A stretch of 64,000 nt of DNA from Anaeramoeba flamelloides (lineage: Eukaryota; Metamonada; Anaeramoebidae). Every line of letters begins with the position of its first letter. Within the stretch, counting starts at the first letter, position 1. Below are positions 1,651 to 44,624 of the stretch, piece after piece. The stretch lies in assembly GCA_027625915.1 (NCBI GenBank), contig JANTQA010000070.1:8871001-8935000 (forward strand), in the 5' to 3' direction. The translations under genes and the position numbers were made by a program. The notes under the pieces were generated by a model, which had not been told where the DNA came from, searched no databases, and was given only the letters and a program-made list of their open reading frames with translations.

Positions 1651-2704
1651 TTTTTTTTTTTTTAAAAAAACAAAACAAAAATTTGAAGAATTTTGAAAAA
1701 ATGATTCTGATCATAAAATCTAAAAATTTAATTTGAAAAGAGATTAGGATAAAACCACTCAAAACATTTTATAATGGGTTTATAAAGTAAAACAACATTT
1801 TTTTTAAATAATTTATAATGAAAAATTACAATTTAGATCAAAAAATAGTTTATTTTTCTGATTTTTACTTGATCAAATTTTAAAAGTTTCCCCTTTTTAA
1901 TGAGTTGGGTTGGTAATGATCCATTAGCTAATTTAACCATTTTTTTTAAAAAATTAATTAAGACTGTTTTTTTTCATTGAGAATTTTATAAAAATTACAA
2001 TCAAAAGATATTAAGTATTCAAAAGACTCAAAATTCCCTTACCAGTTGATATGAAAAAACGTATGTTGACCTATCACAAGTCATCATTAATTTTACGCAA
2101 TTTTTGAATTTATAAACTTTACTAATAAAATTGAAAGAATAAATTCATTTAACACCAATTAATTTTAGATTTTATACTTTCCTTATTATATTACTTTCGA
2201 AAATTTTTTAATGCCCTGGTTTAATTTCTAAAGTTTTTTTTTTTTTTTTTTTTGATAATATAATTTTTTTTTGGTTGTACAAAATTAACAAAACATTAGA
2301 AAAAAGAAAAGGATGTAAAAATATATTATATTTTTATTATAAAATTTATTCTTATTGTTATGTATGTTAACTGACATATTAAAACATGGATGAATATAAT
2401 TTAATTTCCTTTGTGTTTTTTTTTTTTTTTGATATTATTATTATTGATTTTTAATTATATTTATCAATATAAATAAAAGTATTTGTTGAAAAAAAAAAAT
2501 CAAAACAGTAAATATTATCAAAAATATATTGAATCATTTGTTTTTAAAATTAATTCCAAAGTAAGATTTAAAAAATAACAAGCCCCCGAAAATAAATAAA
2601 AACGAATATATAAATATATCTATTATTAATTTTCGAAATAATTATTTGCATTAAAGAAAAAAATGATTGATAAATAATTCATTATAATTTTGATATTATC
2701 TGTT
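1651..2704. other. intergenic, nothing recognised
   Basis: AT-rich DNA with long T and A runs (for example about 2231-2253). No credible exon, RNA gene or repeat-family member was seen. Confidence 0.5.
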
Positions 2705-3268
2705 TTAATATGATTCGGACTCGTCAGGATTTAAATTTATATTGAGAGAATTATCGTATTCTTTATTTTTAAATCTATTTTGGTTTTTAAATATCAAAAT
2801 TATTAATGATAGAGAAGGGAAAAGTTGAAACATATTATTTATAAAATATGGCCAGATGGTGTATTTGGAAGATAACCATGCTAATCGTGAATTATCACCA
2901 ATCTTTTTACTAATAATAAAATATAATACAAACAAACAAATCAATATCAATATTACTCCAACCAAAATTAATACATTGATAATCCCCCTTACAATTTTGG
3001 CAATATCTATATCAGAATTCACTGGGAAATTTTTTTTAAATCGATAAGCTAATCTAAAACTAAAAACTGCTGTGACCAAATCGAAAATAAGTATCACTGA
3101 ATCGGCAGTGCCTATAAAAATTCGCTGTGTTTGATTTTGAGTTTCAATCATCGCCATAGTTAAACCTATCAAGATAAAAAAAAAAAATCCAATAACTATA
3201 CCACATCTCACCCATAATTTTTTTATATTTTTTTCATCATAATTTATATCTGATAAACTAAAGTACAT
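2705..3268 (-). CDS. partial THH1/TOM1/TOM3-like multi-membrane protein (C-terminal half)
   Basis: The 187-residue reading frame holds four hydrophobic segments at about residues 21-43, 52-74, 88-118 and 142-160, followed by a short polar, acidic tail (NLNPDESESY). The order of segments and loops (a basic FRLAYRFKKNFPV loop, then two more membrane segments) matches by memory the second half of the seven-helix THH1/TOM1/TOM3 (DUF1084) family, membrane proteins of endomembranes. The first three helices are missing. The frame begins just after a T-run and a possible AG acceptor, so it is probably a last exon rather than a complete gene. A related N-terminal half lies upstream at 5475-5908. The two overlap in the family's fourth helix, so simple splicing of one to the other would duplicate that helix. 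They may be two separate gene remnants. Confidence 0.5.
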   Translation of the reverse strand: MYFSLSDINYDEKNIKKLWVRCGIVIGFFFFILIGLTMAMIETQNQTQRIFIGTADSVILIFDLVTAVFSFRLAYRFKKNFPVNSDIDIAKIVRGIINVLILVGVILILICLFVLYFIISKKIGDNSRLAWLSSKYTIWPYFINNMFQLFPSLSLIILIFKNQNRFKNKEYDNSLNINLNPDESESY

Positions 3269-5474
3269 TTGATATCTATTTTTTTTTTTTTTTAGATTTG
3301 AAAAAGTGAAAAGAATGAAAAGAAAGAGAAGAATAAAAAGAATAATAAGTTATAAGTAAATACAATTTTTAACTTTGTTTGTGGCATTTTAGATTAAACC
3401 TAGGATAAAACTGAACATTTAGTTTTAAAGATCAAATTCACAATGAAAAAAAAGAGAAAGAAAAAATTTTAAATGAAAATTATAAATAGAAAATTCGATT
3501 TTTTCATTTATTTAGTCATTAAATAAGAAAAATGTAGAATATTCCAAGCAATTTCCCAAGTAGATAATTCGAAATAAAAGATCAATTATTAATGTTTTAT
3601 TGTTCTTTAAATAAAAAAATTACTGTTTTGGAATAAACTTTATAAAGAAAAAAAATTCAAAACTTATAGCTAAAATCACCTATTTTTCTCATTTTATTTC
3701 AACTGTTTAAAAAAGTTTTCAGAATCATTATTTTAATTAATAATTCATTGGTTTTTTTTATCTTACAATGAACTGTATTTATAGGAATAAAGTTATTTTT
3801 TTTGAAGGATAAGCTAATAAAAATGATCAAAAATTGCCACTTTTCTCAGAATATTTATTTTGGTTATTTCTTGAAAAAAGATCTTTCGTTAATAATACTC
3901 TACTTATTTAGAGTATTTTTGAATTTTATTTTTTGTTTTATCATGTAAATGGCCCATTTCTTGAAAAAGTCTCGAAATATTAAAAAAGGAAGGGGCAGCT
4001 GGATAGAAGATATGCGAATTTTCTCTAGAACAAATTTGGAAAGTTATTAATTTTTTTAAAAAAAAAATTGGTGTTTTAAATCGATTGTTGTTAATTTGAA
4101 AATTTATTTTGAGATTTTAAAAGGGATGAGGAAATAACTTTACAAAAATGTTTTTTTAGTTGGAGGCAATTACCTTTAAAATTTTTATTAAGAATTCAAA
4201 AATTTGTCTAGCTAGAATGATCCAAACTGAATAAAAAAAACTTTTCAAAGAATTTTTTTTATTTTATTTTTATATTGTAAATTAATTTTTTTTCCTTAAA
4301 TATCCTCACAATTTCAACGAAAAATAACAAATACAATTTAACTCATTGCTTCTAAAATGGGAGATAGATTTTTATTTCTGGGTGTTATAAATATCTGCCG
4401 ATCAAGAAAAATATATTACCATTCGAGAAAAAAAGTTCAACACAATTTTTAATAGGTAACCTTATTGAAAACAAAAAGTAAAATCAATTAAAAAGAAGAA
4501 ATTAATTAGCTTCAAAGAATAATTCATTAGATTATTTTCAATTGACTAAATAAAACAAATTTAAATCCCCTTGAATTAAAAATCCCAATGTTCGGTTTTG
4601 GGGATTCTCAAAAATACTGCTATTTTCCAATTAATAAATGAAACTTTTTATTTTAATTTTCAAGAAGAATCTTATTTATTATGTCTACAATCAAATCTGC
4701 AGAGATAAAATTTTGTCTTAGAGTTAATTAAGGAAGTTTAATTTGTTGTCTAAAAAAATAATTTCTAAACGATGTTGTAAAAGATCTTTGGATTTTCTTC
4801 AACTTATAAACGAGAAAAATATTTGAAGAATGTGAACTAAAAATTTTCAGTTTTTAATTGGAAAATAAGAGTAGTTAATTTTTTCAACAAAATTTTCATG
4901 ATTGATCAATCAAAGAACATCCCTATTACCAAAAGATAGTACTAGAAAAACTGTTATTGTGCAGATACCTCCATTTTGTCTTGAACCATTGATTTTGTCT
5001 TTTATTAATTCATCTTATTTTTGGTTTTCAGGTTTTTTAATGTTCCCAATTAAAACCGGTGTTGATCTTTTTTTCACGAAAGGTTGCTTCTTTTCTCAAA
5101 TTCATTTAAATAACTGCCGATAACCAATCAACAATTTTTTTTTAATCAAGAATTCTTCCTTGATCGTCACCCGATATCAAACAAAAACAGTTTTGCTTTA
5201 CTTGAAAATTTGTATTTTTCTTTTCTTTTTTTTTGTCTGCTAATAATAGAATGAAAAATCTAAAGTTTGATCAACTTAAATCTTGAATAGGATTTAATAG
5301 GAAATTGAATGGCTTTAGAATCGTTTTTTTGGTAGTATTTTTTTGGGTTTCTTTATTTTTATCATTTGCCTTTCGACAAAATCTTTTTGATTCGAACAAT
5401 ATTTTTTTTTGTTGATTTGAAAAAAGGAAAAATATTTTGAGAAAAGAAGAAAAAAACAAGGAAAAAGAGGTTAC
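3269..5474. other. intergenic or long intron, no clear exon
   Basis: About 2.2 kb of AT-rich DNA separates the two THH1/TOM1/TOM3-like pieces. A diverged segment at about 4260-4440 resembles 11740-11900 (shared core 'ataaatat' followed by 'aaaaatat' motifs), suggesting an old dispersed repeat. Short open frames at 4902-5123 and 5271-5459 show no recognisable domain. Confidence 0.4.
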
Positions 5475-22610: not shown

Positions 22611-23880
22611 GGGTTGCAACTATGATAAAAAAAAATTAATATTTTTGAAATAGTAAAGAGTTCAAAAATCAGAATTATAACTATTGGTATAACTCATCAA
22701 TTATGAACTTGTAAACCGCATTTTTCATTTTTTTTAAATTTAGTAAAATAACTTAATATTCAAATCAAAATTTTGTCAAATGCCGAAGAACTTAACAACT
22801 TTCCAATTTAATGAAATAATGATTTATAATCTCTCATCTAAGACACCAACAATAAACCCTAATTAAATACGGTCTTGGTTTCTGAAAGTCCAATTATTTA
22901 AAAAGAAATTTTAAAAATAAAGGATCAAATTGCCAAAGTTATATCTAAAAATAGAGTAAATTTTGAGAAAACATTTTTGTCTAATAAAATTTAATCAAAA
23001 AAGTTTAAGAACTACGTATAGGATTTACCGATTTGTATAAAAAGCTTTTGGTTCAATTCGATTTGAATTGAAAAGTTAAGATCTTTAAAATATTCTTCAA
23101 TTTGGATCAAAAAAAATCATTTTATGTCATTTTTTTTATGAAAAATGAAAAAGAAATTTTGAGATACGTGAACTTGAACACCTTGTTAAGGATTGTAAAA
23201 ATGAAAAAGAAAAATACTCTCGATTTTTTTACATTAAAAACAATTAACAACAAACATCTTTGTATCTAAATGATCATATTGTCAATGATTTTTTGATCAT
23301 TAAGTTGCTTTGAATTATTACATTGTCTCTACAAAGAATTAATCCTTTCCAACCCTACTGTGAAAATTTATAAGAAATAGAAATTGGTTATTTATAATAA
23401 AATTGTGTTTTTCAAAATAAAGAATTCAATTTCTATCATAAGATAAAAATTTCAACTTCTATTCCTTTATTAGAGAAATTTTTTTTTGTAAAAACAAAGA
23501 CAAAAATTAAATTTTCATAAGAAAAGAAACCATTGAAACCACAGAAACCATGGAAACTTGAAAGTTCATATTTCGATTTTTTTTTTAAAATTGTCAAGGT
23601 TGGAATTTTAATAGTTTTGGGAATTGAAGATCCAAATTAGTGTAATTATTTTTAAACAATTTGTTTTTCAATTTCCAAGACCAAAGGAACCAAAGGAACC
23701 AAAGGAACCAAAGGAACCAAAAAATGGATAAATTATTTTTAATCTTGTATTATAAATTTTATGGTTTATGATGAGCGTTAATAGCCCTTTTACTGTTTGT
23801 TGTACATGGATAAAATTTCCGAATAGAAAATCAATTTCAGGGTATTATAAATATTCACGGTAGGAGCAGGAACGGTTGTA
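22611..23880. other. intergenic with a 9-bp minisatellite
   Basis: At about 23681-23722 the unit 'ccaaaggaa' repeats about five times. Shortly before it (23530-23560) lies a looser run of 'gaaacca'. Otherwise this is AT-rich DNA without recognisable genes. Confidence 0.6.
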
Positions 23881-24448
23881 TTATTTATTACAAAGAGAGT
23901 GTGATTTTGGCTTATTTTGTTTTTGGTTCTTTTTGTTTTTCCAAAAATTAAATCTCCCAAACATGGCTAAGAGGGGTGTGTCTCCCCAAATTGTTTGTGG
24001 AACAACATAATCCATGCCAAAGGTACTTGGCATTTTTAATGGGCTTTTTTGATAAAATTTTTTTTTTTTTGGATGATTTCTCTCAAAACCCAATTTGTTG
24101 TATCAAGACTAATTGGGTTGAGGGTATGTGGTAAACGTTTTGAAGTTATTTTAATTCAAAGGATCTTTTCGAAATTAAATTTGTAAAAATTAGTCAGTTT
24201 TTGTTTTTAAAAAATAAATTTCTTTGTCATTTCAGAAAAAATGATCTTTATATTTTTTTGGGAATTGGGAATTTTAGAGGATTTGATACAATACCAAACA
24301 CTTTATGGTAGACATTATTCAAAAAATATCTTGATTGTAAAACAACAGACTTTTTCATCAAAAATTTTTCACTTTCCGAATTTTTGATCTCTTCCAACAT
24401 TTTTTGAAACCTTCTCCTCTTAACTCCATAACCAAAAAAAAAAAACAT
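23881..24448 (-). CDS. possible small two-exon gene, unrecognised
   Basis: Two short frames of unusually GC-rich, protein-like sequence sit head to tail. The upstream piece (24248-24448) starts MFFFFGYGVKRRRF and includes KSVVLQSRYFLNNVYHKVFG. The downstream piece (23881 to about 24070) includes MPSTFGMDYVVPQTIWGD and LLAMFGRFNFW and ends in a Lys/Asn-rich tail. A donor-like GTATTG or GTATCA near 24280 and acceptor AGs near 24085 could join them, but the junction is not certain. I recognise no family. A small organellar or membrane-associated protein is possible; that is a guess from size and aromatic content only. Confidence 0.3.
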
Positions 24449-25742
24449 TGAAACGTACCAAAAAAGTGTAAGGGCTTTAAAAATTGTTCTAAAAAGTTAT
24501 TTTCTCAAAAACCAAATTTTGCCAACATTCTTTGTAATTTCGAGATATGAGGAGACTAAAAATTATGCAAAAAATGCCATTTTTTACTACTTAGATCTCA
24601 CCATTTCAAATTTTGTGAGAATTACCAAGGCCTAGAACCTGATTAGAACATATTTAATCTTGAATTTCAATGTGAAACGTAGTCCTTAAAAAAAATATAC
24701 AAGTAAATTGCAAAAAAATTTGAAAAAAATTTCATCCCTAATATAAATTTTACTTCAAACTATCAACAAGTTTACTTTCAAAATTTATTTGAATTTAGGT
24801 ATACTATTGAGTTGTAGATTGGATGTTACCTTTGAACAAGAAGAAAAAAAAGCACATTTTCTATTTTGAAACACAGATTATAGACATTGTCAAGAATTCT
24901 TCTGATTCCTGTAAATACTGTTTTGATCTTTATTGGTAAATAATTCCAGGAACATAATTTCAGATGCTAAATTTGTTGAGGTGAAAATCTTTGAAGACAA
25001 CTTGGTAAATCAGACAACTCATCGATATTGTATATCAATTTGAGAAAAATCAAAATAATTTTAAAAAGTGCAATTTTTGATGTATATTTGTATCATTTGG
25101 TCAACAACACAAATTGGTTTTTGTTTCTAGTTTTCAAAAAACCAAATCCTTTAAAACACTCTTTTTCCTAAAATATGTTCTTTGGGTATCTACCCTTTCG
25201 AGGCAAGGAATTCTTACCGATTTTTTATTGAAAGTTATCCGTTAAAATTATTATTAACTAATAACAAACGAAAGAATTTGGAATTGAATTGATCTTGAGG
25301 AAAGGTTTTAATGAAGAAGAATTGTTTTGATTTACATTGGGTATGCTGCATCATTTCGGAAAAATATTTTTTTTGTTTTTTTTAAATTTGGTTATTTTGT
25401 GTTTTAATTAGGGTTTTTTAAAATTTTATTGAGATACGTTAAGTAGGAATATTATATCGGATTAGATTACTTTTTGTATCGTTACCTAGCCTAACCCTAT
25501 CAGAACTATACCACGTACCCTACCCTAACCTAACCTAAGCTAACCTACCATACCCTAATTATACCATAAACCACCATAAAATTATTATAATACATTTTTT
25601 ATTTGGAACTAAAGTTCTTTTCATCAAAATGAAACCAAACAATGAAATAAAAGGTGTTGATCATTGATTTAAAAACAAGTCTATTGAAAAAAAAGTAAAA
25701 AAAATTCAAATTTAAAATATCCAAACAATTTGTTTTATTTAA
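24449..25742. other. intergenic
   Basis: AT-rich DNA without supported genes. Its right part contains the telomere-like stretch described separately. Confidence 0.45.
25478..25560 (-). repeat. interstitial telomere-like repeat
   Basis: The plus strand carries degenerate units of 'cctaa' and 'ccctaa' in a row, best at about 25510-25545 ('accctaccctaacctaac' and onward), read as TTAGG/TTAGGG on the minus strand. Units are interrupted by substitutions ('agctaacctacc'). The stretch is conspicuously C-rich on this strand compared with its surroundings. Confidence 0.6.
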
Positions 25743-25943
25743 ATTCAGTTCCACTTTTAAGGCACAAACTTTCAAAAAAATGAAAGACACAAAAAAAATC
25801 TCAAATTAAGGCACAAAATTTGTAATTTTATTTTTTTTTACAATTTATTTTACTAGAATCTGAATTTTGTGCCTTAATTTGAGATTTTTATTGTGTCTTA
25901 AATTTTGTTGAGATTTTTTACCTTAAAAATGAAACTGGCTGTA
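25743..25943. mobile_element. palindromic TA-site MITE, copy 1 (most diverged)
   Basis: About 200 bp fold back on themselves. The left arm reads 'cagttccacttttaaggcac', then 'ctcaaattaaggcacaaa'; the right arm is the complement ending 'gaaactggctgta'. This copy has lost the outer bases on the left. It lies about 520 bp beyond the 3' end of the protease gene, as the outer left boundary of the transposon neighbourhood. Confidence 0.8.
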
Positions 25944-26234
25944 TTTAATTAAATAATAAACCTTTTAAAATATTTTGATCTAAAAAATTCATGAATAAAA
26001 ATCAGAGGAAAAATACAATAATAAATAAATAAAAAAATTTTAAAAAATAGAATTTTATTTCTCAAATTAAAAAATAGAAGTATTAATATTATGATAACTA
26101 ATGTAACAATATACCTTGATTGAGAAATTTTGATTTTATTGTTAAAGATTTAATGTTTAAAATAACATCTGATCTAATAATAAGGGACTTTTAATAAGCT
26201 GGATAAATAGTAAATATTATTAACTTTTAATTAA

Positions 26235-26461
26235 TAAATTGTCGCTTGAGTTTTTTTATGAGTGGATCGAAATTTATATTATTTATATCAATTTGGTAAA
26301 AATAATCTTCCAATTTCCTTATATCTGTCATTTCTAAACTACTGAGAAGTCTTTCAGTTGATTGAATTCTTGCACTATATTTTCATTAGAATCGGGAAAG
26401 AAAAAATTTTTACCATATGTTTTCAAAAGATTATTATATTTTTCTAAATCTTGTGTGTATT
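26235..26461 (-). pseudogene. out-of-frame C-terminal continuation of the Ulp1-like protease
   Basis: Minus-strand sequence directly after the stop reads well in another frame (TQDLEKYNNLLKTYGK) and then in a third (ERLLSSLEMTDIRKLEDY), ending at TAA near 26237. This helix-like C-terminal extension, 80-90 residues long, is separated from the main frame by at least two frame changes. Confidence 0.55.
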
Positions 26462-27790
26462 TTACAGTTTTTCGTTTGATGAAAATTTTATTTGTAATTT
26501 TTGGTTTTTTTTTGTATAAAAAATAATAAAAAAAATATCTTTACGAAAAAAAGGTCCACATTCTTTAGAGCATATTTTTAATACACGATCAATTGGAATT
26601 TTTTGAAAACATAATAGTTCGATAAATAAACAAACAAAACTACCACACGAAGAACCATCTTCTTGTAAATTACTAATTCCATTATTAAAATAATATTTTT
26701 GTGTTTTAAGGTTTAATTTTTTATCCAAATTATTTAAGAAATTTTTCAATTTTTCAACTCTTTCCTTAACTGTATTTGGATACATGGTTTCTATTGAATC
26801 TAAACTATATATACTCTTTGTATTAAAATCAGCTATAATTAAAAAATGGTGATAATAATAAGTAATAGTCCAGACTATTTTTGAAACTTTTTTCCTTAAA
26901 ATAGCATTTTTGATTTGATTAAAAATAATTCGATTTTCTTGAATTGTGTTATTATTAATTAGAGTACCACCGGTATGATTACTAATTATCCAAATATTAT
27001 CTAGAGAAATAATTGATCTTTGGGAAAATAATCTGTACTCTTTAAATTTACAATATTGTTCGATATCCGATGTACTTAAATATTCATTATCCGTTAAAAT
27101 CCTAAAAAACCAACTTTTCTTTAAAAGTTGTACATTTAATGGCATACTTTTCCGAATTTTAGAAACAATGTTGTTCAAAATATCAATTGAAGTTATTTTT
27201 GAATTTATATTTAAAACAAAATAATTATTTCTACCTCTTATACGACCAACACTACCTGATTTGATATTTGAAAGTATACGTATTATTTGATCATCATTTT
27301 GGATTATATCTAATTTTTCTTTATCTTTCGTATTTACATTATTCTTTTTTTTAAATCTATTTAATTGTGTATTCTGTAGATGATTATCTTCAGAACTTTC
27401 AGATTCATTGTAACTATCTTCAAAATAAGTTAAATCAACTATCGGTTTTTTATTATTATTGGTGTTGTTAGAAATAGATCGATTTTCCTTACTTTTTGAT
27501 GATGTGGTATTATTATTAATTTTCTCTTGACAATTACCATTCAAAAATAGGATATCTTTACGTGAATCATCCGAACTAGTTAAGATTTTTTCTTCTACCG
27601 TTTTTTTAGTACTGTTATTTAAAGGATTTAAATCAATACTATTACACCAATATTGTTGTACTAATTTTTTAAGAATTCTCAGATCATCTTTCTCAACAGC
27701 AACACCCCTTTTGTGTAAAAATTCGATATAATGATTCTTTGTTAATCTAATTGAATATTTACTGATAATGCCTTCCCGGATCATCTTCAT
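26462..27790 (-). CDS. transposon-associated Ulp1/C48-type cysteine protease
   Basis: The 442-residue frame contains the C48 core in its last third: His315 in YYYHHFLIIAD, Asp331 in YSLDSIE, Gln376 and Cys382 in NLQEDGSSCGSFVC. These have the family order His-Asp-Gln-Cys of SUMO/NEDD8-type isopeptidases. The first half (about 60-170) is Asn/Ser/Lys/Glu-rich. Sequence past the stop at 26462 (to about 26235) stays codon-like in other frames, with strings such as KYTQDLEKYNNLLKTYGK and RLLSSLEMTDIRKLEDYF. The original protein was therefore longer, and an A-run near 26510 probably shifted the frame. Ulp1-like proteases are known passengers of several eukaryotic DNA transposons, and the position between palindromic termini fits that. 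A host deSUMOylase is the less likely alternative. Confidence 0.75.
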   Translation of the reverse strand: MKMIREGIISKYSIRLTKNHYIEFLHKRGVAVEKDDLRILKKLVQQYWCNSIDLNPLNNSTKKTVEEKILTSSDDSRKDILFLNGNCQEKINNNTTSSKSKENRSISNNTNNNKKPIVDLTYFEDSYNESESSEDNHLQNTQLNRFKKKNNVNTKDKEKLDIIQNDDQIIRILSNIKSGSVGRIRGRNNYFVLNINSKITSIDILNNIVSKIRKSMPLNVQLLKKSWFFRILTDNEYLSTSDIEQYCKFKEYRLFSQRSIISLDNIWIISNHTGGTLINNNTIQENRIIFNQIKNAILRKKVSKIVWTITYYYHHFLIIADFNTKSIYSLDSIETMYPNTVKERVEKLKNFLNNLDKKLNLKTQKYYFNNGISNLQEDGSSCGSFVCLFIELLCFQKIPIDRVLKICSKECGPFFRKDIFFIIFYTKKNQKLQIKFSSNEKL

Positions 27791-27859
27791 CTTTATTAGA
27801 TATGGTGATGGACATCGGTAAAAATTTTCATATTTTTTGATTATTGATTTATCCTCATA

Positions 27860-28061
27860 CAGTCAGTTCCACTTTTAAGGCACAAACTTTCAACGAAATT
27901 TAAGGTACAAAAAAAATCTCAAATTAAGGCACAAAATTCCGATTCTAGTAAAAATAAATTGTAAAGTAAAATATAAAATTACAAATTTTGTGCCTTAATT
28001 TGAGATTTTTTTGTACCTTAAATTTCGTTGAAAGTTTGTGTCTTAAAAGCGGAACTGACTG
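27860..28061. mobile_element. palindromic TA-site MITE, copy 2
   Basis: This is a complete 202-bp palindrome from CAGTCAGTTCCACTTTTAAG to its complement, flanked by TA on both sides (27858-27859 and 28062-28063). The arms pair over almost their whole length around an AT-rich centre. It separates the protease and transposase genes. The last codons of the transposase (QFRF and stop) are read from its right edge. Confidence 0.9.
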
Positions 28062-28963
28062 TATGTTGTTTGAATTTTATTCACTCGATATAACCTACGT
28101 GTCCAATTACATAATTTTGCACACGTATCAATCGCAAGAATATGGTTTCCAGGGGTTAGAAAATTCGAATGTGTTGCTATTTTCCATGCCTTTAAAACAG
28201 CGAAAGCACATTCAACAACAGCACGGGATCTTGAATGTAAAGTATTATATTTTTTTGCATCATTAAATTGGTCTTTATTTATCCATGGTTTTCTGATTGG
28301 TTTAGTGACTAAAGGGCCATAAAATCCACCATCGGTTAATAATAAATTGTTCGGTCCTAATTTTTGTTGTAAATTATCTAAATTCCAAACATTTTCATCA
28401 TTTAAATGGCCCTTATATCCTGTTTTAAAGTATAAAAACAGACCATTTATATCAACAACAGCTATAGACTTTTTCGTATGTGCTTTTTGTTTACCTGAAT
28501 ACAATAAACGTTCAAATCATGTACATCGATTTCTTTTATGCTCGGTAATATCCAAAGCACCAACAATATTACTCCAACCCAATTTACCCCATTTTTTAAT
28601 TTTAATCTGAATTTCTTTTTTATTTGGCCATTTGATCACATTTTCTAACTTTCTATTTAACACCCCTATGACATGAATAACTTCACGGGATACTGTGCTA
28701 TTAAGTACACTGAAAAAAAAAACAAGTACCCTGTAAGGCAACGATAAATGTAACCACATTAAAGTCATCAATAATCGATTTTTTGAAGATAATTTTGAAG
28801 GGTGATATTTTTTTTGGGAATGAAAAATATTTTTTTTCCTTGATTTATATGACCTTGGTTCTGAAATTGGTTCTTTAACCAAATTATGTAATTTATTAAA
28901 TTCTTTTAAATTTAAACCACATAACGATATGCAAATTTCAGGCTCTATATACCCCAATTGCAA
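28043..28963 (-). pseudogene. IS5/Harbinger-like DDE transposase (DDE_Tnp_4 type), one in-frame stop
   Basis: Two open stretches in the same frame (28517-28963 and 28043-28504) are separated by a single TGA at about 28517. The first has a helix-turn-helix-like segment (LSLPYRVLVFFFSVLN, TVSREVIHVIGVLN) and the first catalytic Asp in VGALDITEH. The second has the conserved YSGKQKAHTKK, VVDINGLF, GHLNDENVW, the second Asp in LLTDGGFYGP, and the catalytic Glu in SRAVVECAFAVLKAW. This order defines the DDE_Tnp_4 fold of IS5-like and PIF/Harbinger transposases. TA target duplications differ from the three-base sites usual for Harbinger and are nearer to ISL2EU-type elements, though that is from memory. 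No ATG begins the frame; it opens after a TTG, so the N-terminus may come from the adjacent small frame. Confidence 0.85.
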
Positions 28964-28971
28964 AATATTTA

Positions 28972-29220
28972 TTATAGGTGTATTTTTTCTTTCTTTTTCC
29001 TGTTTCTTCTTCTCTTTCTTCGATACAAAACGTCATTACATTTATAGCATATCCCTCGATCACATTCTTCAGAATATTTATGATTCAGCTGTTTACACAT
29101 TTTAATATCTCTTTTATATTTTTTTGGTCGTCCTCTTTCTCTCTTTTTATTTTTACTTTCTGATCTTGTTATCATATGCTTTTGAAAGCAAAAATTAAAA
29201 TTAAGTAGTTTATTCTCCAT
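28972..29220 (-). CDS. small zinc-ribbon/AT-hook protein of the transposon
   Basis: The 82-residue frame starts at ATG 29220, only 42 bp inside the right palindromic terminus. It carries GRPKKYKRD, an AT-hook-like minor-groove motif, then Cys-x4-His-x6-Cys and Cys-x2-Cys spacing within CKQLNHKYSEECDRGICYKC, and a very basic end (RRKRRRNRKKKEK). Its stop lies 9 bp before the transposase frame, which is shifted relative to it. It could be a separate DNA-binding accessory protein or the original N-terminal domain of the transposase, parted by a frame change. Confidence 0.6.
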   Translation of the reverse strand: MENKLLNFNFCFQKHMITRSESKNKKRERGRPKKYKRDIKMCKQLNHKYSEECDRGICYKCNDVLYRRKRRRNRKKKEKIHL

Positions 29221-29261
29221 TACTATATTTTTTTGAAACTAAAAAATTGAATATATATATA

Positions 29262-29458
29262 CAGTCAATTTCACTTTTAAGGCACAAACTTTCAACGAAA
29301 TTTAAGGCACAAAAAAATCTCAAATTGAAGTACAATTTTTTTTGAATTTTAATTTTCACAAATTATTTTACTAGAATTTGAATTTTGTGCCTTAATTTGA
29401 GATTTTTTTGTGCCTTAAATTTCGTTGAAAGTTTGTGTCTTAAAAGTGAAACTGACTG
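29262..29458. mobile_element. palindromic TA-site MITE, copy 3
   Basis: A 197-bp palindrome flanked by TA on each side. The left end is CAGTCAATTTCAC and the right end is the complement of CAGTCAGTTTCAC. It forms the outer right boundary of the transposase unit. Confidence 0.88.
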
Positions 29459-30189
29459 TAGAACATCAAAAGTTTAGGATAGTATTGTAGACATTGTGAA
29501 AATATTTTGGGAAATCTTTTATTTATTAGGTAAAGTTTTGAAAATTTTATATTCTTTAAACTTCCAATTGAATTTAGATGAACTGTGAAGCTTTTTATTA
29601 ATAAATTCCATTTTAAAAATGTAATTTATTGTTATTTTAGAAATGTTTGAAAATTTAATTTACGACATTCTTTAATCTCATAAATCCCAAAATTTGCCGC
29701 GCTCAAGGATTTACGACAATGGAAAAGTAGTTTAGTTCAAGCCAATCAATTATTTGACCAATAGACTACAAAGAAATAGGCCCATCAGTTTTCTGTTAAG
29801 GTTGGAAATTGAACGAATTCTCTTTCGTTTTTTCTAAATAATAGCTAATACTAACATATTTTTTATTTTTACATTCAAAAGAAATCAATCTAATTTTCAA
29901 AAATAATAAGTTTGGAATCATTTTCTTCAAAAAAAGACAGAAAAGACCATTTAATATTAATATTTTGAAAGTGTGAAAAATAATTTACAAAATTAAGAAA
30001 TTGGAATAAAGTCATTTTATTTTAATACGTCAAGTCAAGAAATTTTGGTTAGGAATGCTGAAAATCAGCAACTTTTAAGAACACATGATATACATAAGTT
30101 TTATGTTTAATCGACTTCGGATGTTTCTTACCAAGCGTAAAATAAAAATGGTAAATAGAAACTCATTGAAATTGGCAGTCTAATTTAGC
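29459..30189. other. intergenic
   Basis: AT-rich DNA between the transposon and the next foldback. No gene or repeat-family member was recognised. Confidence 0.45.
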
Positions 30190-31660
30190 TCTGTGTGATT
30201 TTAAACCAAGTTTTATCCTTAAAATATGAAAATATAAACTTTAACTTCAATTTTTTACAATGACCCCATTGGAAAAATAGAAAAGATCCTTTGAAAAAAC
30301 AAGTTCTTTAAAGTACCATTAAAAATAACCAATTGGTTTTTACTTGTGTATAAAATGAATATTTGTTTTAGTTTGTTCGTTTTTATTTTTTATACCAGAG
30401 TTAAAAAATAATAAGAACATCATATCGTTTTATTTGTTCAACAATCATCTTTTGTTTTTGTTTTTTTTTCCTTTTTCTCCTCATTGAATTTCCTTTTTAT
30501 TGGGAAGAATAGTTACTAAGGAGAAAAATCAAGTGGTTACCTACTAATACTTGAAGGACAGAAACTATTTGGTATGGATAACTTCTAAAAAAAGAAAAGA
30601 CAACAACAAAAACTGGAAAGATCAAAAAAGATTGGATCAAAAAGAAAAAAAATGACAGCTACTAAATAACTACCTCTCAACTAAGCATTCGCGATTTCTT
30701 AGAAATAATTTATCGACAAAATTTTAAACAAAATGATCGTGACTGTTTTAATGAGTTTTCTTGATAAAAATGAACAGTTGGCTTTTTTTTTTTGATTTTT
30801 ATCAACTTCCTTTTAAAACATATTAATTTTTGTTTTCTAACTTGATTTTTTTTAATTTTTTTCTATTTTTAATTTTTCTTTTTGTTTTTTCAACCAATAA
30901 AAATTGGAACCTGCCCGATTCCAAAAAAAAAAAAACGTTTTTTCTTTATCTTATAAATTACTAATTAACCACTAATAATCAGAGTCGTAAGAGGATCTTT
31001 GATCACCCCTTTCAATCAATAAAAAAATAATAACCGTTTTTAATTCTTCGTTTAATTCTAATCCCAGACTCAAAATATGATATTGTTCTTGTGCTAAGAT
31101 TATATTAATCACCGTTATTCGAACTCCTCAACATACTCTTAAATCGCTTGGAACAATATCAACTTTCTCGTTCTTTATTGATTCGATTTGCAAAAAATCT
31201 CCTTGTTATGTCACGATTTTGACCAGAAAGAATGATAAATATGATATTGTTCCAAGCGATATAAGATTATGTTGAGGAGTTGGAAGAAAGATGATTAATA
31301 TAATATTAGCACTCGAACAATATCATTCTTTTGAGTCTGGAAGGAGAACCAAAAAGAGTAAACATAAAAGGTGATTTTTTTGAACAAATGAAACAATATG
31401 AGGCGCTATTTATTTTTTAATTCGGGATCTAACTCTACACATCAAAAAAAACAAGCGAAAACAAACAAAAAAAAAACTAATTTATTATTTTTCAATAGTA
31501 TTTTAAAGAACTTTTTCTTCAAAGGATCTTTTTTTTCCAATGGAACGATTGAAAACAATGAAGTTAAATTTTACATTTTCTACATCGGTGATAAAACTTG
31601 GTTTAAATTCATACAGAGACAAACCAGATAGTTGAATTTTCCAATGAGTCTCTATCTCCA
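30190..31660. repeat. large foldback element with asymmetric left arm
   Basis: The inner arms (about 31066-31175 and 31225-31345) pair around a short centre: 'gactcaaaatatgatattgt' on the left against 'acaatatcattcttttgagt' on the right, and 'cgcttggaacaatatc' against 'gatattgttccaagcg'. The outer arms (about 30195-30440 and 31390-31650) also pair: 'gaaaagatcctttgaa' against 'ttcaaaggatctttttt'. The left side has about 600 extra bases (30440-31065) between inner and outer arm, probably a later insertion. A solo half-copy sits at 12450-12890. Confidence 0.65.
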
Positions 31661-31679
31661 GTTTTTATTTTTCAGTTTA

Positions 31680-31870
31680 CAGTCAGTTTCACTTTTAAGG
31701 CACAAACTTTCAACGAAATTTAAGGCACAAAAAAATCTCAAATTAAATTACAAAATTTATATTCTAGTAAAATAATTTGTCAAAAAATTCCAAATTTTGT
31801 ACCTTAATTTGAGATTTTTTTGTGCCTTAAATTTCGTTGAAAGTTTGTGCCTTAAAAGTGAAACTGACTG
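31680..31870. mobile_element. palindromic TA-site MITE, copy 4
   Basis: A 191-bp palindrome from CAGTCAGTTTCACTTTTAAG to its complement, flanked by TA (31678-31679 and 31871-31872). It begins about 20 bp after the foldback at 30190-31660. This is a solo copy with no transposase nearby. Confidence 0.9.
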
Positions 31871-33369
31871 TAGTAAAATACTTCTTATTTTACCCAAATA
31901 GAATTCAAAAAAAGAAGATCAGAAAATTTCCAAACTTTGCCTTATTACTAAAGGATTTCCCAAAATCTTTCCACAGCGACTACAATACTATCCTAAACTT
32001 TTTTTGTGAAACAATCACTTTATTATAAGTAGTTGTTTGGAATTATATAGTTGAATTTTTACAAATAAAATGCTTGAGATAAAAAATATTATTAGATTAT
32101 CCATCGTTATTTCAGACCAAACTAGTAACACAACAAGGAGATTGATTCCAAATCAAAACAATAAAGGCAGTTATACTCTTTTAACTTAATTTTTGACACA
32201 TCTAAAAAACATAAGTTAATACAGGAAATTCGAACTCGCTTAAAAACTATTTAAAGGGGATTCAAAAAAATCTGTAATTTGTACTTTTCTACGACTAATT
32301 TCGTTGAAGTTTGTACATTTTAAGCTGAGCTAACTGTTTTGAAACTTGTAAACCAAAACGCCCTTCATTACTCTATTTATGAAAAGAAAGCGAACCCAAA
32401 TAATTCAAAGTTAATTCGTTTTTCGGTTTTTTGATTTTTGAAACATATTTTGATCATATTTTTGGTTTTATTAAATTAAGTTTTGGATCTAGAAATGTAT
32501 TTTATTGAATGGGTGAAATTAAACAAAGAGCAAACCAAAAAAGTAAACTTGAAAATGTGTTTATTTGAAATTAATCTTTTCTTTACGAAGACATAAAACA
32601 AAAGACTAACTTTCCAAATAAATTTGTTGAAATCAAGAATGAAAAAAAATCGAGAAAAGTCTATTATCCAAGATTAGTTTTCTTTATCTTCTTAATTTTT
32701 GTGTATACAAACTATTTTTTTCCTTGATTTTCTCGACCCATTACTATTTATTATTATTTTAAAAAACTGATTGTATTAATTCTTTTTTAAAATATTGTTA
32801 TCAAACAATAAGACAAAAAAATATCATGATTCAAAAACTAAAATATAAAGGAGTTGAATTCTCTAAATGAAACAAGTTATACAACATTCAACTCAAAATA
32901 ATTGAAAATTTTAGTAAAAATTTCAATTATATTCAGAATTTGTGTAGTTCTCATTTTAATAGAAAATAAATAATTATAAAATAAAACAAATTCATCCAAT
33001 AAATACTTATTTATGAAGAGGAATTTAATAAAATATACTATTTTCTTTGAACAAATCTGGATTTTGATGAATTTTAATCAAAATAGAGGATTTTTTGATT
33101 CATTTTGGAAATTCTTTGTAAATATAAAGTAATTTGTTTTTCAAAAATTTTAAAAATAAAATTATTCTCATAAAGAATTACAAATAAAACAAAATAAAGA
33201 ATAAGTAATTGTGTAAAATGTTATGGATAAGATTAAGTAATAAATGATTTTTATTTATTTTTTTTGATGAATTTTTTCATTTTTTTTATTGCTTTATGTT
33301 TTTTTGTTGGTATGAAAATATATTTATTAGAATATATTCCACTTTCTGTATTTATTGAAATAACAATGT
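31871..33369. other. intergenic with a MITE relic
   Basis: At about 32299-32337 the string 'tttcgttgaagtttgtac' followed by 'taactg' is the worn right end of a palindromic MITE; its left half is not recognisable. The rest is AT-rich without supported genes. Confidence 0.5.
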
Positions 33370-35640: not shown

Positions 35641-37125
35641 TTTTTTTTTTTTATTGAGGAGGAAGTGTAGATTACACTCTAAGTGCCCTTTTACTTAAAT
35701 TCCCTTTCAGAAATTTAAGCGTAAAATCATAGATTTCACGATTATTAATTAACGAAAATAATTTTAAGCTATCATAATTTAAAATTATTTCATTAAAATT
35801 TAATTCTTTTAACTTTTTCAGAAAAATTAATCTATCTTTTTTATAGGAAGGACATACCCATAAAAAGTGATCAATATTTTCTATTATTTCCTTATGTTCA
35901 TATTTTAAACATAAAGGACAAAATTTATTTGAATTTTTATTTATTACATAATAATATCTATTTAAGCAGTTGGTAAATGTTCTGAATTTTAGAATTGTTG
36001 AACTTGATGGATAACTTAAATATCTTTGATTAATAAATAAATTTTTTTTGGTTTTTAATTATTGCGAAATATTTTTGTACCTTCCAACTGGTAGAATTCA
36101 ACAACTCATTATAATTATAATTATAAATTTCCTTTTTAAGAAGGTTTAAACTCTCCGACTTCCAGTTAATTTTATTGTTTATTCTATGATTAAATTTTAT
36201 TAATTTTTCCAGATAGGGTAGAGATAATTCTTTTTTAATTTATTTTTGAATTTGAATTTCTTTTTTATTGATTGATATTACCAAATTTTCGAATTTAAAT
36301 TCTGTTTTATAAATAAGAATTGGTGTGTTTCTGTTTATTTTGCAGATTTCAGTAATACATGTATTAATCCAAGAGTTTAAATAGTTTAGGGTTGCTATTT
36401 TATAATTATATATTTCTAATCCATATGTTAATTGACTTAATATAAAAGATTTAAATAATCTTATTTTTAAATTATTTGTTAATAAATTATTATTGAATAA
36501 TTGTTTAGAACTATTATAAGTTTCCTTTTGCCTTTTTTAGGTTATAGACTAAATGTGAAATTTTTTCCAAATAAATTCCCAAATATTTAATTTTTGATAA
36601 ATCTTTAGTAATTTCTGTTTTGTCTTCATTAGGTTTTAATCCAAATTGGACAATTACTTGATATATAGCATTTAATTTTTCATTTATTTGATTCATATTC
36701 CCTTTTATGATTAAAATTAAATCATCTGCAAACATTTGACAATGATTTGTTAATGGTATTATTTTTAATAATAGAAAATGTGAAATAAGAGCAAATATAA
36801 TCGGTGATAAGGGATCCCCCTTGGAATATACCGAGTCCTTTTCCTTGATAATATTTTACTAAAAATTTTTGAATAATTGTATTTAAAATAAACTTTTTTA
36901 TTGTTTTCCTAATTATTTTAAAACTGATTGAGTCAAAGCATTTTGCTATATCAATCATTATAATATGAGTTTTATCATTTTTATTTTCATTATTTGTTTT
37001 TATCTGATTGTAAATATTTAAAAAGTTTAATACCGCAACACGAGTATCAAATTTTTTTCGAAAGCCAAACTGCGCTTTATGAATAAATTCCCAACAAGGC
37101 TCAATAAGTTTATATAGCATTTTAA
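35641..37125 (-). mobile_element. LINE copy 3, 5'-truncated, flanked by an 18-bp target-site duplication
   Basis: A non-LTR retrotransposon lies on the minus strand. The sequence 'gataaatttgcgtttatt' occurs at 35623-35640, next to the poly(A) end, and again at 37126-37143, next to the truncated 5' end: a perfect target-site duplication. Coding remnants run from the reverse-transcriptase fingers (37120) to a C-terminal Cys/His finger (CPLCLKYEHKE, IDHFLWVCPSY) near 35850-35970. It sits in the loop of the foldback 35102-37468 and is the best preserved of four copies. Confidence 0.92.
36514..37120 (-). pseudogene. LINE reverse transcriptase fragment
   Basis: Two overlapping frames (36722-37120 and 36514-36735) carry the reverse-transcriptase motifs in order: HKAQFGFRKKFDT, motif A in MIDIAKCFDS, a degraded motif B in IFQGGSLITD (usually PQGSPLSP), the catalytic FADD in MFADDLILI, motif D-like GLKPNEDKTE, and KIKYLGIYLEK. 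The two frames meet just before the FADD box, so at least one frameshift separates motifs B and C. The upstream endonuclease domain is absent because of 5' truncation. Confidence 0.88.
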
Positions 37126-40868: not shown

Positions 40869-41992
40869 AAATTCATATAAGATCTATATTGAAAAAAAAT
40901 CAAATTTTTATAAAAGTAAATAAATCTGAAATTAATCAATTAGCCAAAAAAAGCATTCATTTATAATATCATTACTAAAAAACCCAATAAAAAAAATCAA
41001 AGAAATTCCTAATTATAAAAAACTAAAATGTTATCAACAATTATTTGTTTAGTATTTATAAATTTCAAAAGGGTTAAATTACTTCAATTTAAAAAAAAAT
41101 GTTTTCTAAAAGTATACACTCAATTTGATTCGATTTAAACTAATTTTTTGTTATTTTATAACCCTCTAGATTTAAGAAAGTAAGAAATTTGTACAAATTT
41201 AGTGAAAAAAACTCATTTGAGTAATGAAAAAGAAACAAAAATCGTCGATTTCATCAATAGATTAGAAGGGGTCATAATTCAAGACTAAAGCAGTTGTTTT
41301 CAAAGTTATATATTCTTACCTTCAAATAGAAAATCAAGTTTTGGTCTTTGTTGATTTTTTCTAAAAATGTACCCCTTTTTGATTTTGATTTTTGGAGATC
41401 GAATGCACTTCACAAGTTGATTGGTTTTTAATTGATATTAAGTACTCATAAAAATTATAATGTTTTTTTTCTTCCAGTTCAGAAAATTATTTCTTACTGT
41501 AACGGCTTGACCCTAAAATTATTCTTTTTCTTCAGGAATTTACTTGTTGAAAAAATTAAAATACAGAAACAATTATCAAAAAGTTAAAAATTAAGATTGC
41601 CGACTAGACACTTGTCATCTTTAATTGAAGAAATTGAAAAAATTCGGAAAGTGATAGTAAAAATAAGTCATATTATTTTCCCATAGTTCACATAAATTCA
41701 ATATTCACAAAAAAATTTGATTTGTAAAATCGTAATAAAAGTTTATCTAATCAATTAAAAATTATCCTTATATTCAACAAAAAAAATCAAGAATTTTGAG
41801 AATAAAATCTGTATTTCAAGATAAATCATCAGAAGCCTTATTATCAATATCCACACTTCAAAATTGCAAAAGATCTTTCTTATGGGTGTATGTTCTAAAT
41901 CAATTCTCCAGATATATCAAAGGCGTCTTTCTTTAATTGTGGTGAATATGATCTTTTATCCAGCGGTTAGATTATTTTTTATACTTATAATA
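40869..41992. other. intergenic
   Basis: AT-rich DNA. 'taacggcttgaccctaaaa' near 41500 resembles edges of the 120-bp repeat and of the hairpin at 18592, so another decayed repeat may be present. No gene was seen. Confidence 0.4.
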
Positions 41993-42186
41993 CAATCAAT
42001 TCCACTTTTAAGACACAAACTTTCTACGAAATTTAAGGTACAAAAAATTTCTCAAATTAAAGCACAAAATTCAGATTCTAGTAAAATAAATTGTAAAAAA
42101 AAATTACAAATTTTAAACCTTAATTTGAGATTTTTTTGTGCCTTAAATTTCATTTAAAGTTTGTGCCTTCAAAGTGGAACTGACTG
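41993..42186. mobile_element. palindromic TA-site MITE, copy 5
   Basis: A 194-bp palindrome with left end CAATCAATTCCACTTTTAAG and right end the complement of CAGTCAGTTCCAC, flanked by TA (41991-41992 and 42187-42188). Its left arm is more worn than its right. Solo copy. Confidence 0.88.
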
Positions 42187-44624
42187 TATCATTTTCTATT
42201 TTGGTTTTCTTGTTTTATGTTCTATTACAAAAAAAAGCATTACCTGCATAATATTAATGAATAGTAGTATTTATTTATCAGTAAATTATTACTTTTTACC
42301 AAGTTTCAAGTATAAACGTGCTAATATCTGACTTGAATAAGAAATCAATTGGTTAAAAATTTTCTTAAGTTTATTTCTTTGGAATCTGTAATTGATTTTT
42401 TCGAAGAGAACAAAAAAAAAAAAAAAAAAAAAAATACAATTTGTACACATTAAAAAATATCACATAAAATTGTGATCTAAAATTTTTGATAGTTTTTTTT
42501 TGAATAGTAAAGATACACACACACATACAAAAGAATTGTTATAAAGAAAAAAATTAGTACAAAAGAAAATTTTGGATATTTAATTAATTTATTCAGAAAT
42601 TATGTTTGATGAAGTTATTTAAATAGAGGTGTGTTCTTACTTTTCTGAAATTACAAAAAATTATAACTTTTCAATTATTTTTAAAATAAAAATGACAATA
42701 TAACTATTTATTTTTTCTTAATTCATAAGAAACAATTTATCTAACTCCTTTGATTTAAAAAAAGATAATTTTTTTTTTATTTTTAAAAAGACTCGACAAT
42801 CAAGTCAGTTGATATTCTGAGTGTTTTTCAAAATTATCACTCTATTATTGAATAATTATAAAAATACACAATTATATAGTACTGGAATGGATTTTTCTGA
42901 GATCTAGTATCTCTAAAAAAAAAAAAAATTCAACCTGATAAAAAATATAAAATTTGATTCCCTAAAATATTTTTTAAATATACTTGTAAAAATGGAATAA
43001 GTCGAACTTTCATCAAACATATTCACTGTACCATTAAAGCTGTTTGAAGTAACACTTTTTAAAACTTTACGTACTTACTTATGTAAAAAAGGTTAAACAC
43101 TGGTATAAAAATTCTAAAAAAACACCTGGCAAGAAAATAATCACCTACAAGATTTTTAGATGTTAATAATAGGAAAAATTTTTGTGTAATTGCAAATATT
43201 TTAGATCAAATCCTTTTTAAAAATCACTAATTTTTTTTATGAACCTAGTAAAAAACCTACCTAAATCTCATTAAAGTGGGGGTGTCTAAATACTCAAGTA
43301 ATTGTTTGATAGCCTAAGTAGATCATCTTTTTTTTGAAAAACAATCAAAATTTATTGGGGTTTTCTAGAAGTTTAGAAAACAATAATTTTTATTCTTGTT
43401 TTTTGATTGATTGAATATTTTTTTGAATAAGATTAATTTCATCAATTATCATTCTAATAAGTGGGCGATTTATAATTTTAAATATTTGATTCTTAAAAAA
43501 AAGGATTTGGATTTTAATTTTTAGAAATAACACAACAATTTTCCTAATATTAACAATTAAAAATCTTGTCAGGGATTCTATTTAGGTTGAGTATTTTTTT
43601 CACTTATTGTAATAAAATAACAAATCCAAAAAAACTTTATTTTTATTTTCCTAACTTTACTTAACAAACCATTTTTACAATTGTGTAAATCAACCATATT
43701 AACAACCTTTAACACATTACAAAAATTTAACTCACGTTTTTTTTTCAGACTTGGGTATTTGAAGAATTGAATAGACATACATATATTTTTGGTTCATATT
43801 TAAATTGACTTTAGAGGTTAGATCTTTGATTAATCGAAATGGTTCAATAATATTAAACACTTTTGTTTTAAAAATTTTCACAAATTTTCAAAAATTTGCA
43901 AGATTAAATGATTTTTTTAAAAAAAATTCCAAAAAATAAAATTGTCATTTATTTTTTTGTCAAAAAATTACATTTTAATCTTCCAATATCTTCATAATTC
44001 TTTTTTAAATTTTATTTAAAGAACCCTATTTTTTGTTTAGATACTGTTTTCATCCCCATTGATTTGTTTCTTTTATTTCTAAAGTCAGCCAATATTTTTA
44101 TCATAAGATTAATTTTTAGTAATGGGTTAAAATAAAAAATTCAGGTTATTTACTCCACTGTAGTATTAGAGTTTACCAAAGAAATTGATTACATTTTCTG
44201 TTCTCTAATTATTTGGATGATCCATTTTTGATGTTTGTATTGGAAAATATTGGGTGTAGAAATAACCCAAAATGAAAGGAATTTTGATGAAGTGAAAAAA
44301 AGAAAATCAGAAAAAATTTTTTTCCCTTTTTAAATATCAAATAATAATAAATATCTTATTTTTAATTCAAAGTTTTAATTTTCATACAATTGACACTCTA
44401 TGAATTTGTTCGTTCACAATGTATTCTAAAAAGGATGATTCCTAAAAAATTTACTTGACGCCTTTGTCAAAACAAAAAAAAAAAATATCAAATCTTCTTT
44501 CAAAATCAAACAATATTTATTTAGGAGTGATTTTATTTAGCGACACAAGCCGTTTGATCAAGAAGAGATTGGTTATTGAATCTTAAAGAAGATAAAATGG
44601 TATTATAAATCATAAATACAAAGC
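42187..44624. other. 2.4-kb intergenic stretch
   Basis: AT-rich DNA with homopolymer runs (42410-42434) and a short CA run near 42520. No convincing exon; the frame at 43578-43778 has no domain. The last 100 bases are the 3' flank of the rhomboid gene. Confidence 0.45.

Follow-up and report, generated by a model that had tools for sequence, protein, structure and literature searches.

A probable transposase-C48 protease gene of Anaeramoeba flamelloides, now broken, with copies of a palindromic TA-targeting element in and beside it

In the genome of the metamonad Anaeramoeba flamelloides, which comprises 254 Mb in 76 contigs (assembly GCA_027625915.1), a 64-kb window of 24% GC was analysed (contig JANTQA010000070.1, positions 8,871,001 to 8,935,000; this whole stretch is "the window", and its own numbering is used below). 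At positions 25743-29458 the window holds a coding region on the minus strand in which the ORF list and Pfam place, in the 5' to 3' direction, an open reading frame (ORF) of 82 amino acids (aa), an HTH_Tnp_4 domain, a DDE_Tnp_4 transposase domain and a Peptidase_C48 (Ulp1-type) protease domain, together with three palindromic units of about 200 bp (U1, U2 and U3), which are copies of a miniature inverted-repeat transposable element (MITE). The features of the locus are:

25740-25943, U1: palindromic MITE copy; arms of 86 nt, 83% complementary; the most decayed of the three
26462-27857, minus strand: C48 (Ulp1-type) protease part, open from the U2 edge via an ATG at 27790 to the stop
27858-28063, U2: palindromic MITE copy inside the putative transposase-protease frame; arms of 60 nt, 97% complementary
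28064-28504, minus strand: C-terminal part of the transposase, with DDE_Tnp_4 and, by eye, the second Asp (TDGG/LTDGG) and the Glu (VECAF) of the DDE triad; C-terminal end cut by U2
28517-28963, minus strand: N-terminal part of the transposase, with HTH_Tnp_4 and, by eye, the first Asp of the triad (GALDITE); ended by an in-frame TGA at 28517-28519
28972-29220, minus strand: 82-aa ORF in which, by eye only, a stretch like an AT-hook and spaced Cys/His residues can be made out
29260-29460, U3: palindromic MITE copy, separated from the first ORF by about 40 bp on its upstream side; arms of 76 nt, 93% complementary

Both transposase domains are over the Pfam cut-off (DDE_Tnp_4, PF13359, E 8.9e-17; HTH_Tnp_4, PF13613, E 2.7e-8), and the transposase also matches pfam01609 (E 1.3e-6). 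The HTH and DDE ORFs share one frame and are separated by the TGA at 28517-28519; as it stands, with U2 present, the DDE_Tnp_4 ORF spans 28043-28504 of the minus strand. The protease ORF, taken from its own ATG, covers 26462-27790 (442 aa) and matches PF02902 with an E of 1.5e-5 and 25.4 bits against a cut-off of 20.7, over positions 89-203 of a 217-position profile, and with 27.7 bits when the genome was scanned; motifs with candidate His-Asp-Gln-Cys residues of a C48 enzyme were located in it and read by eye. Its single-sequence structure model (pLDDT, a model confidence score, 45.9) is too weak to use: Foldseek gave no match to it at E 0.001, the first SENP, SENP5, standing at rank 7 with a non-significant E of 0.32, and a PDB sequence search with the protease returned one chance-level match and no SENP. 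The 82-aa ORF, whose frame differs from that of the HTH and DDE ORFs, probably represents the transposase's N-terminal part.

A preliminary description of this DNA had named the transposase, the protease and the three palindromes, all of which are where it put them; it had placed one palindromic unit between the genes, but U2 appears to lie inside the reading frame, and the transposase has an in-frame stop. Its zinc-ribbon/AT-hook protein is an AT-hook-like, Cys/His-bearing ORF to the eye, for which Pfam returned only a RING-like match below threshold (E 0.091). Searched against the genome, transposase and protease each find one close copy, the window's own, so that the gene is single-copy. 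None of 41 pattern matches in viral contigs was confirmed as a relative of the C-terminal part of the transposase, and Rfam gave no match in the window. Four similar C48 proteins, encoded by ORFs of 573-633 aa in separate places (L064-L067 among the loci fetched from the genome, which carry L numbers), may be a gene family or mobile.

If U2 is left out and its flanks are connected through a single TA, no stop interrupts the frame between the TGA at 28517-28519 and the C48 stop, a stretch that includes DDE_Tnp_4 and a linker of 37 codons. The inter-domain stretch of 112 nt was open in 89 of 2000 shuffles and, multiplied by one third for phase, this gives a chance of about 1.5%. To judge from this continuity, the original gene likely encoded one transposase-C48 protein, the frame of which is now broken. 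The alternative, that transposase and protease are separate genes with U2 between them and a frame that is open by chance, draws on the protease's own ATG at 27790, which opens a protein of 442 aa, and on a chance of in-phase opening that is small, not nil; it is considered unlikely, given the 37 codons that stay open between the end of DDE_Tnp_4 and the protease ATG without U2 and the transposase-protease fusions in print (PMC2836005).

The palindromes have a life outside this locus. U1, U2 and U3 each have TA at both ends, and as single-stranded DNA, U3 folds at -73.4 kcal/mol, where its shuffled versions average -18.1 (z -17.95) and none of 200 reaches its value. A 34-nt arm pattern, allowed up to two mismatches, has 5929 forward and 5966 reverse matches in the genome (11,895 altogether), and the reversed control has none. 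From the fetched loci and the window 56 distinct full-length units were collected, their ends placed by a 12-nt motif that contains TA and so favours it; the set includes five from the window, U1-U3 and two solo copies of the same family beyond 25743-29458:

31678-31872, U4: solo palindromic MITE copy
41991-42188, U5: solo palindromic MITE copy

The length is 198-203 bp in 46 of the 56 units, and TA stands at both ends in 49 (with the end-placing motif itself including TA). Their consensus is 200 bp long, matches its reverse complement at 92.8% identity and carries TTAAGGCACAAA three times per arm. Flanks of 54 units were joined at one TA and searched against the fetched loci and the window, weak or repeat-driven rows being left out; an empty paralogous site with a single TA was found for at least 8 of the 54 (L051_471, L051_1064, L054_1303, L055_1886, L056_1305, L026_1359, L012_2980 and L013_1181), with best matches of 96.7-99.6%. 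Two of these units sit in the same member of a Harbinger-type family, of which six other copies (L048, L049, L050, L052, L056 and L060) match across both joins, and units also interrupt ORFs at other transposase loci (a Harbinger-type ORF in L051, a DDE_3 ORF in L029 and, in L034, an ORF upstream of the DDE_3 ORF). The palindromes are a TA-targeting MITE family that moves alone.

Stowaway-like MITEs, described in plants, are about 200 bp long, have hairpin arms and no coding capacity, duplicate TA and reach thousands of copies. The palindromes agree with these and with Tc1/mariner-type MITEs in size (~200 bp), in being non-coding, in their long inverted, hairpin-forming arms, in the TA duplication and in the thousands of copies; the difference is that here the arms, each with its three TTAAGGCACAAA motifs, fill nearly the whole element. 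Elements of this kind are also known among the DNA transposons of Pandoravirus salinus (PMC4495683). The family may be a new one of the Stowaway-like kind. A longer variant, which could lead towards an autonomous partner, is seen at L014:392-723, where 176 bp lie between two arms like those of the MITE, each about 80 bp long.

The three copies at the transposase-protease gene are closer to copies elsewhere than to each other. Among the 56 units, the nearest relative of U1 is L004_1496 (93.0%), that of U2 is L008_1501 (95.5%) and that of U3 is L026_1359 (97.5%), against identities of 88.2% (U1-U2), 84.4% (U1-U3) and 88.4% (U2-U3) among the three; ranked with the other 55, the best unit from the window comes 23rd for U1, 32nd for U2 and 12th for U3 (U4 in this last case). 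Genome searches that scored the best 40 of 2673 (U1), 2329 (U2) and 882 (U3) candidates gave 91%, 95% and 98%, respectively, for the best other copy. Decay from the consensus of the 56 units amounts to 9.5% in U1, 5.5% in U2 and 6.0% in U3, and U3 would be younger than U1, because 39 other scored copies (the best of 882 candidates) are 96-98% identical to it.

Moreover, three units in a row are not rare. The sample for this count consisted of 35 places that had been fetched on account of a transposase rather than of palindromes, namely 17 DDE_3 loci (L027-L043) and 18 distinct DDE_Tnp_4 places; left out were L024-L026 (selected because of the transposase relative or of palindromes), L012-L023 (several of which coincide with L027-L043), L053 (the window) and L063 (the same place as L061). 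Three full units occur at 4 of these 35 places (L029, L041, L055 and L059), in stretches of 3.3-5.5 kb, and L005, which was fetched for its palindrome, has four in 1.4 kb. Given the high copy number, the solo empty sites, the closer relatives elsewhere and the triples at other transposases, U1-U3 are not the ends of one transposon. Very probably, they are independent copies of the TA-targeting MITE which landed in and near a single-copy, now broken transposase-C48 gene.

The course of events may have been as follows. A MITE of about 200 bp, whose arms are nearly the whole element, would be moved as double-stranded DNA by a transposase acting in trans, probably an enzyme of Tc1/mariner type that would recognise the CAGTCAGTTYC end and perhaps also the TTAAGGCACAAA motif, and insertion duplicates TA, as seen for copies elsewhere. 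TA duplication is typical of Tc1/mariner elements. The three copies would have arrived at different times, U2 in the coding frame, U3 just upstream and U1 downstream, in an order that can only be suggested. Before U2, the gene would have encoded one protein with a helix-turn-helix domain, an IS5-type DDE transposase and a C-terminal C48 deSUMOylase, as its continuous frame indicates; by analogy with other transposons, the protease might free the transposase, or repair factors at the excision site, of SUMO.

Several observations weigh against this reading. The open frame taken as a fusion might be due to chance; the evidence for an insertion of U2 is the continuity of the frame, since the TA empty sites come from copies elsewhere and a single-copy gene has no paralog in which to look for an empty site of U1, U2 or U3. 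Transposase loci are richer in full units (16 in 91 kb for DDE_3 and 14 in 61 kb for DDE_Tnp_4, or 15 in 64 kb if L061 and L063 are counted separately) than ten C48 loci (1 in 35 kb), which argues for some link of the units to transposon-rich DNA; the window has 5 in 64 kb. The best inverted pair around the gene, found by comparing 23001-26461 with 29221-33000 with the palindromic units masked, is a perfect 16-mer whose score of 21 was reached by 1 of 100 shuffles. Finally, no autonomous element with the MITE end was found among the DDE_3 loci L027-L043 and L074, though one may exist elsewhere.

The two copies of the 16-mer, both uncertain leads for which chance is possible, are:

24155-24170, plus strand: left copy of the 16-nt inverted pair
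30280-30295, minus strand: right copy of the 16-nt inverted pair

Genome-wide there are 15 occurrences of the 16-mer (control 0), of which the other 13 do not form close inverted pairs, and the flanks of the pair share at most AA. The pair may mark the old ends of a 6.1-kb element or may be due to chance.

As to the enzyme that moves the MITE, 150 of 268 DDE_3 candidates were scored, and the 17 loci L027-L043 and L074 were read for an autonomous partner; in the terminal pairs of 31 stretches, those with the MITE end, among the pairs listed, are whole MITE units. In L041, a DDE_3 ORF is accompanied by unpaired MITE arms at 2115-2186 and 4898-4970. It belongs to a mariner-like element of 1.5 kb with its own TAAAC...AATTCAAAATTT ends (L041:2214-3684), 97% identical to L074:233-1726, a relative without MITE arms, and it was rejected as the autonomous partner; since the homology to L074 covers only 2214-3684, without the arms, this mariner seems to lie in or beside old MITE remains. 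Two further arrangements were noticed among the fetched loci, a 1.3-kb DDE_3 family with TATAGTCTACGAC ends (L016, L019, L030, L032 and L040, with L016 the same place as L030 and L019 the same as L032) and, in L017, long arms holding repeated subunits over 2.6 kb.

Ordinary Harbinger-type elements of this genome show what the ends of a DDE_Tnp_4 transposon look like. In one family (B), the element starts with AGAGATATTC and ends, in reverse complement, with AGAGATTTTC, and a 3-bp duplication was seen by eye in 7 of 7 copies; in another (A), the ends are AGAGATTTTACG and AGAGATATTC, and 3 of 4 copies show a duplication of the same length, likewise by eye. Both have ordinary single-arm AGAGAT ends, palindromes are later insertions in copies of both, and neither is a close relative of the window transposase, around which no closely bracketing AGAGAT pair was found. 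That the transposase of the window moved the palindromes, even if they do not serve as its ends in this copy, is quite improbable: a full or partial unit is present at 8 of the 18 distinct DDE_Tnp_4 places, but DDE_3 loci are alike in this respect (10 of 17 with a unit), and the units duplicate TA, as opposed to the 3 bp and AGAGAT ends of the two DDE_Tnp_4 families, an indirect argument insofar as these are not close relatives.

The preliminary description had proposed a transposon type in which a mobile palindrome is itself the terminal unit, and a version of it with complete palindromes U1 and U3 as ends and U2 as a later or internal copy can be set aside as extremely improbable, for although U1 and U3 bracket the coding region, the units belong to a mobile MITE family that gives TA duplications and the single-copy gene has no paralog that would exclude it directly, U1 and U3 are 84.4% identical to each other against 93.0% and 97.5% to relatives elsewhere, their decay differs (9.5% against 6.0%), 11,895 arm matches stand against one gene copy, unit triples surround unrelated transposases and each of U1, U2 and U3 has TA at start and end. 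The same description was right that the palindromes can stand alone as MITEs, as solo units and the single-TA empty sites of at least 8 of the 54 units attest, and its other suggestion, a composite of MITEs around a transposase, comes close to the truth, except that no evidence was found of mobility as a composite. The arrangement which it had set against its own proposal, a transposase with single-arm ends and palindromes independent of it, is the one found in the two Harbinger-type families with AGAGAT ends and later palindromes, although the window gene is not closely related to either. The palindromes are thus an ordinary but very successful MITE, and dense MITE copies can mimic the ends of a new transposon type.

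What is likely to be of lasting interest is the probable transposase-C48 fusion, together with a hint of protease exchange in a relative. With HTH_Tnp_4, DDE_Tnp_4 and DDE residues recognised by eye, the window gene resembles IS5-like, PIF-Harbinger and ISL2EU transposases; it differs from them in being single-copy and in being followed by, and apparently fused to, a C48 protease. Within the open-licence PMC literature, represented by partial texts, no IS5-type or Harbinger transposase with C48 was found. PMC2836005 reports a Trichomonas vaginalis protein, XP_001314237.1, that combines transposase_11 (pfam01609) with Peptidase C19; like the window protein, which matches pfam01609 too, it joins a DDE transposase to a protease of the ubiquitin/SUMO pathway, the difference being C19 in Trichomonas and C48 in the window, with a possible and unconfirmed C19-like partner at the relative described below. 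With this published Trichomonas combination of DDE transposase and C19 protease as precedent, the fusion would be a variation on a known theme. In the same source, Ginger1 transposases are given C-terminal Ulp1 or OTU domains and Mutator elements an Ulp1 domain, and the authors suggest that such domains take part in transposition; other papers mention Ulp1-like regions in CACTA and MULE elements (PMC2528002) and C48 in Cryptons (PMC3212892). Ginger1, CACTA and MULE elements share with the window gene an Ulp1 domain on a transposon, C-terminal in the transposase in the case of Ginger1, whereas their transposases are Gypsy-integrase-like, CACTA and Mutator enzymes, unlike that of the window. The window gene would thus add an IS5-type transposase with C48 to the transposases joined with proteases of the ubiquitin/SUMO pathway.

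With the DDE part as query, the only other match in the genome is at C13:15888369 (contig C13; 43% over 85 aa), where the HTH part is matched at 39% over 71 aa. This place (C13:15888132-15890403, identical with L024:4133-6404) holds the relative of the window transposase and then, on the same strand, a possible C19-like protein made of two overlapping frames, with a GFIWHDNICYLNSLLHLF box and, later, CPEC...HF. Motifs read by eye suggest a C19 (USP)-like protein, an assignment that stays unconfirmed: no Pfam UCH match was obtained at E up to 1, nor any PDB match, and the protein is absent from the 121 of 302 UCH candidates that were scored. Compared with an ORF in L034 that is USP-like by eye, it gave an E of 5e-4 in blastp (in a one-protein search space and without composition correction) and of 0.05 in phmmer. 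Relatives of this protein (48-49%) lie at two places in the genome, 25928-26602 of contig C48, near the low end of that contig, and C62:6515-7177. One may speculate, with more doubt than confidence, that a single lineage of IS5-type transposases swaps its C-terminal partner, C48 in the window and C19-like at C13:15888315, the removal of ubiquitin-like tags being built into transposition whatever the tag; if this exchange were true, the role of tag removal in transposition would be directly testable. The UCH (C19) gene set of this genome is very large, with at least 123 matches over the cut-off from 121 of 302 candidates and many open frames of 2,500-3,100 aa.

Two minor observations concern the rest of the window. 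By eye, 36722-37120 is a fragment of a reverse-transcriptase-like ORF and resembles ORFs in L025:6014-7472, and 25480-25560, just outside U1, is a degenerate CCTAA-rich stretch that resembles an interstitial telomere-type repeat.

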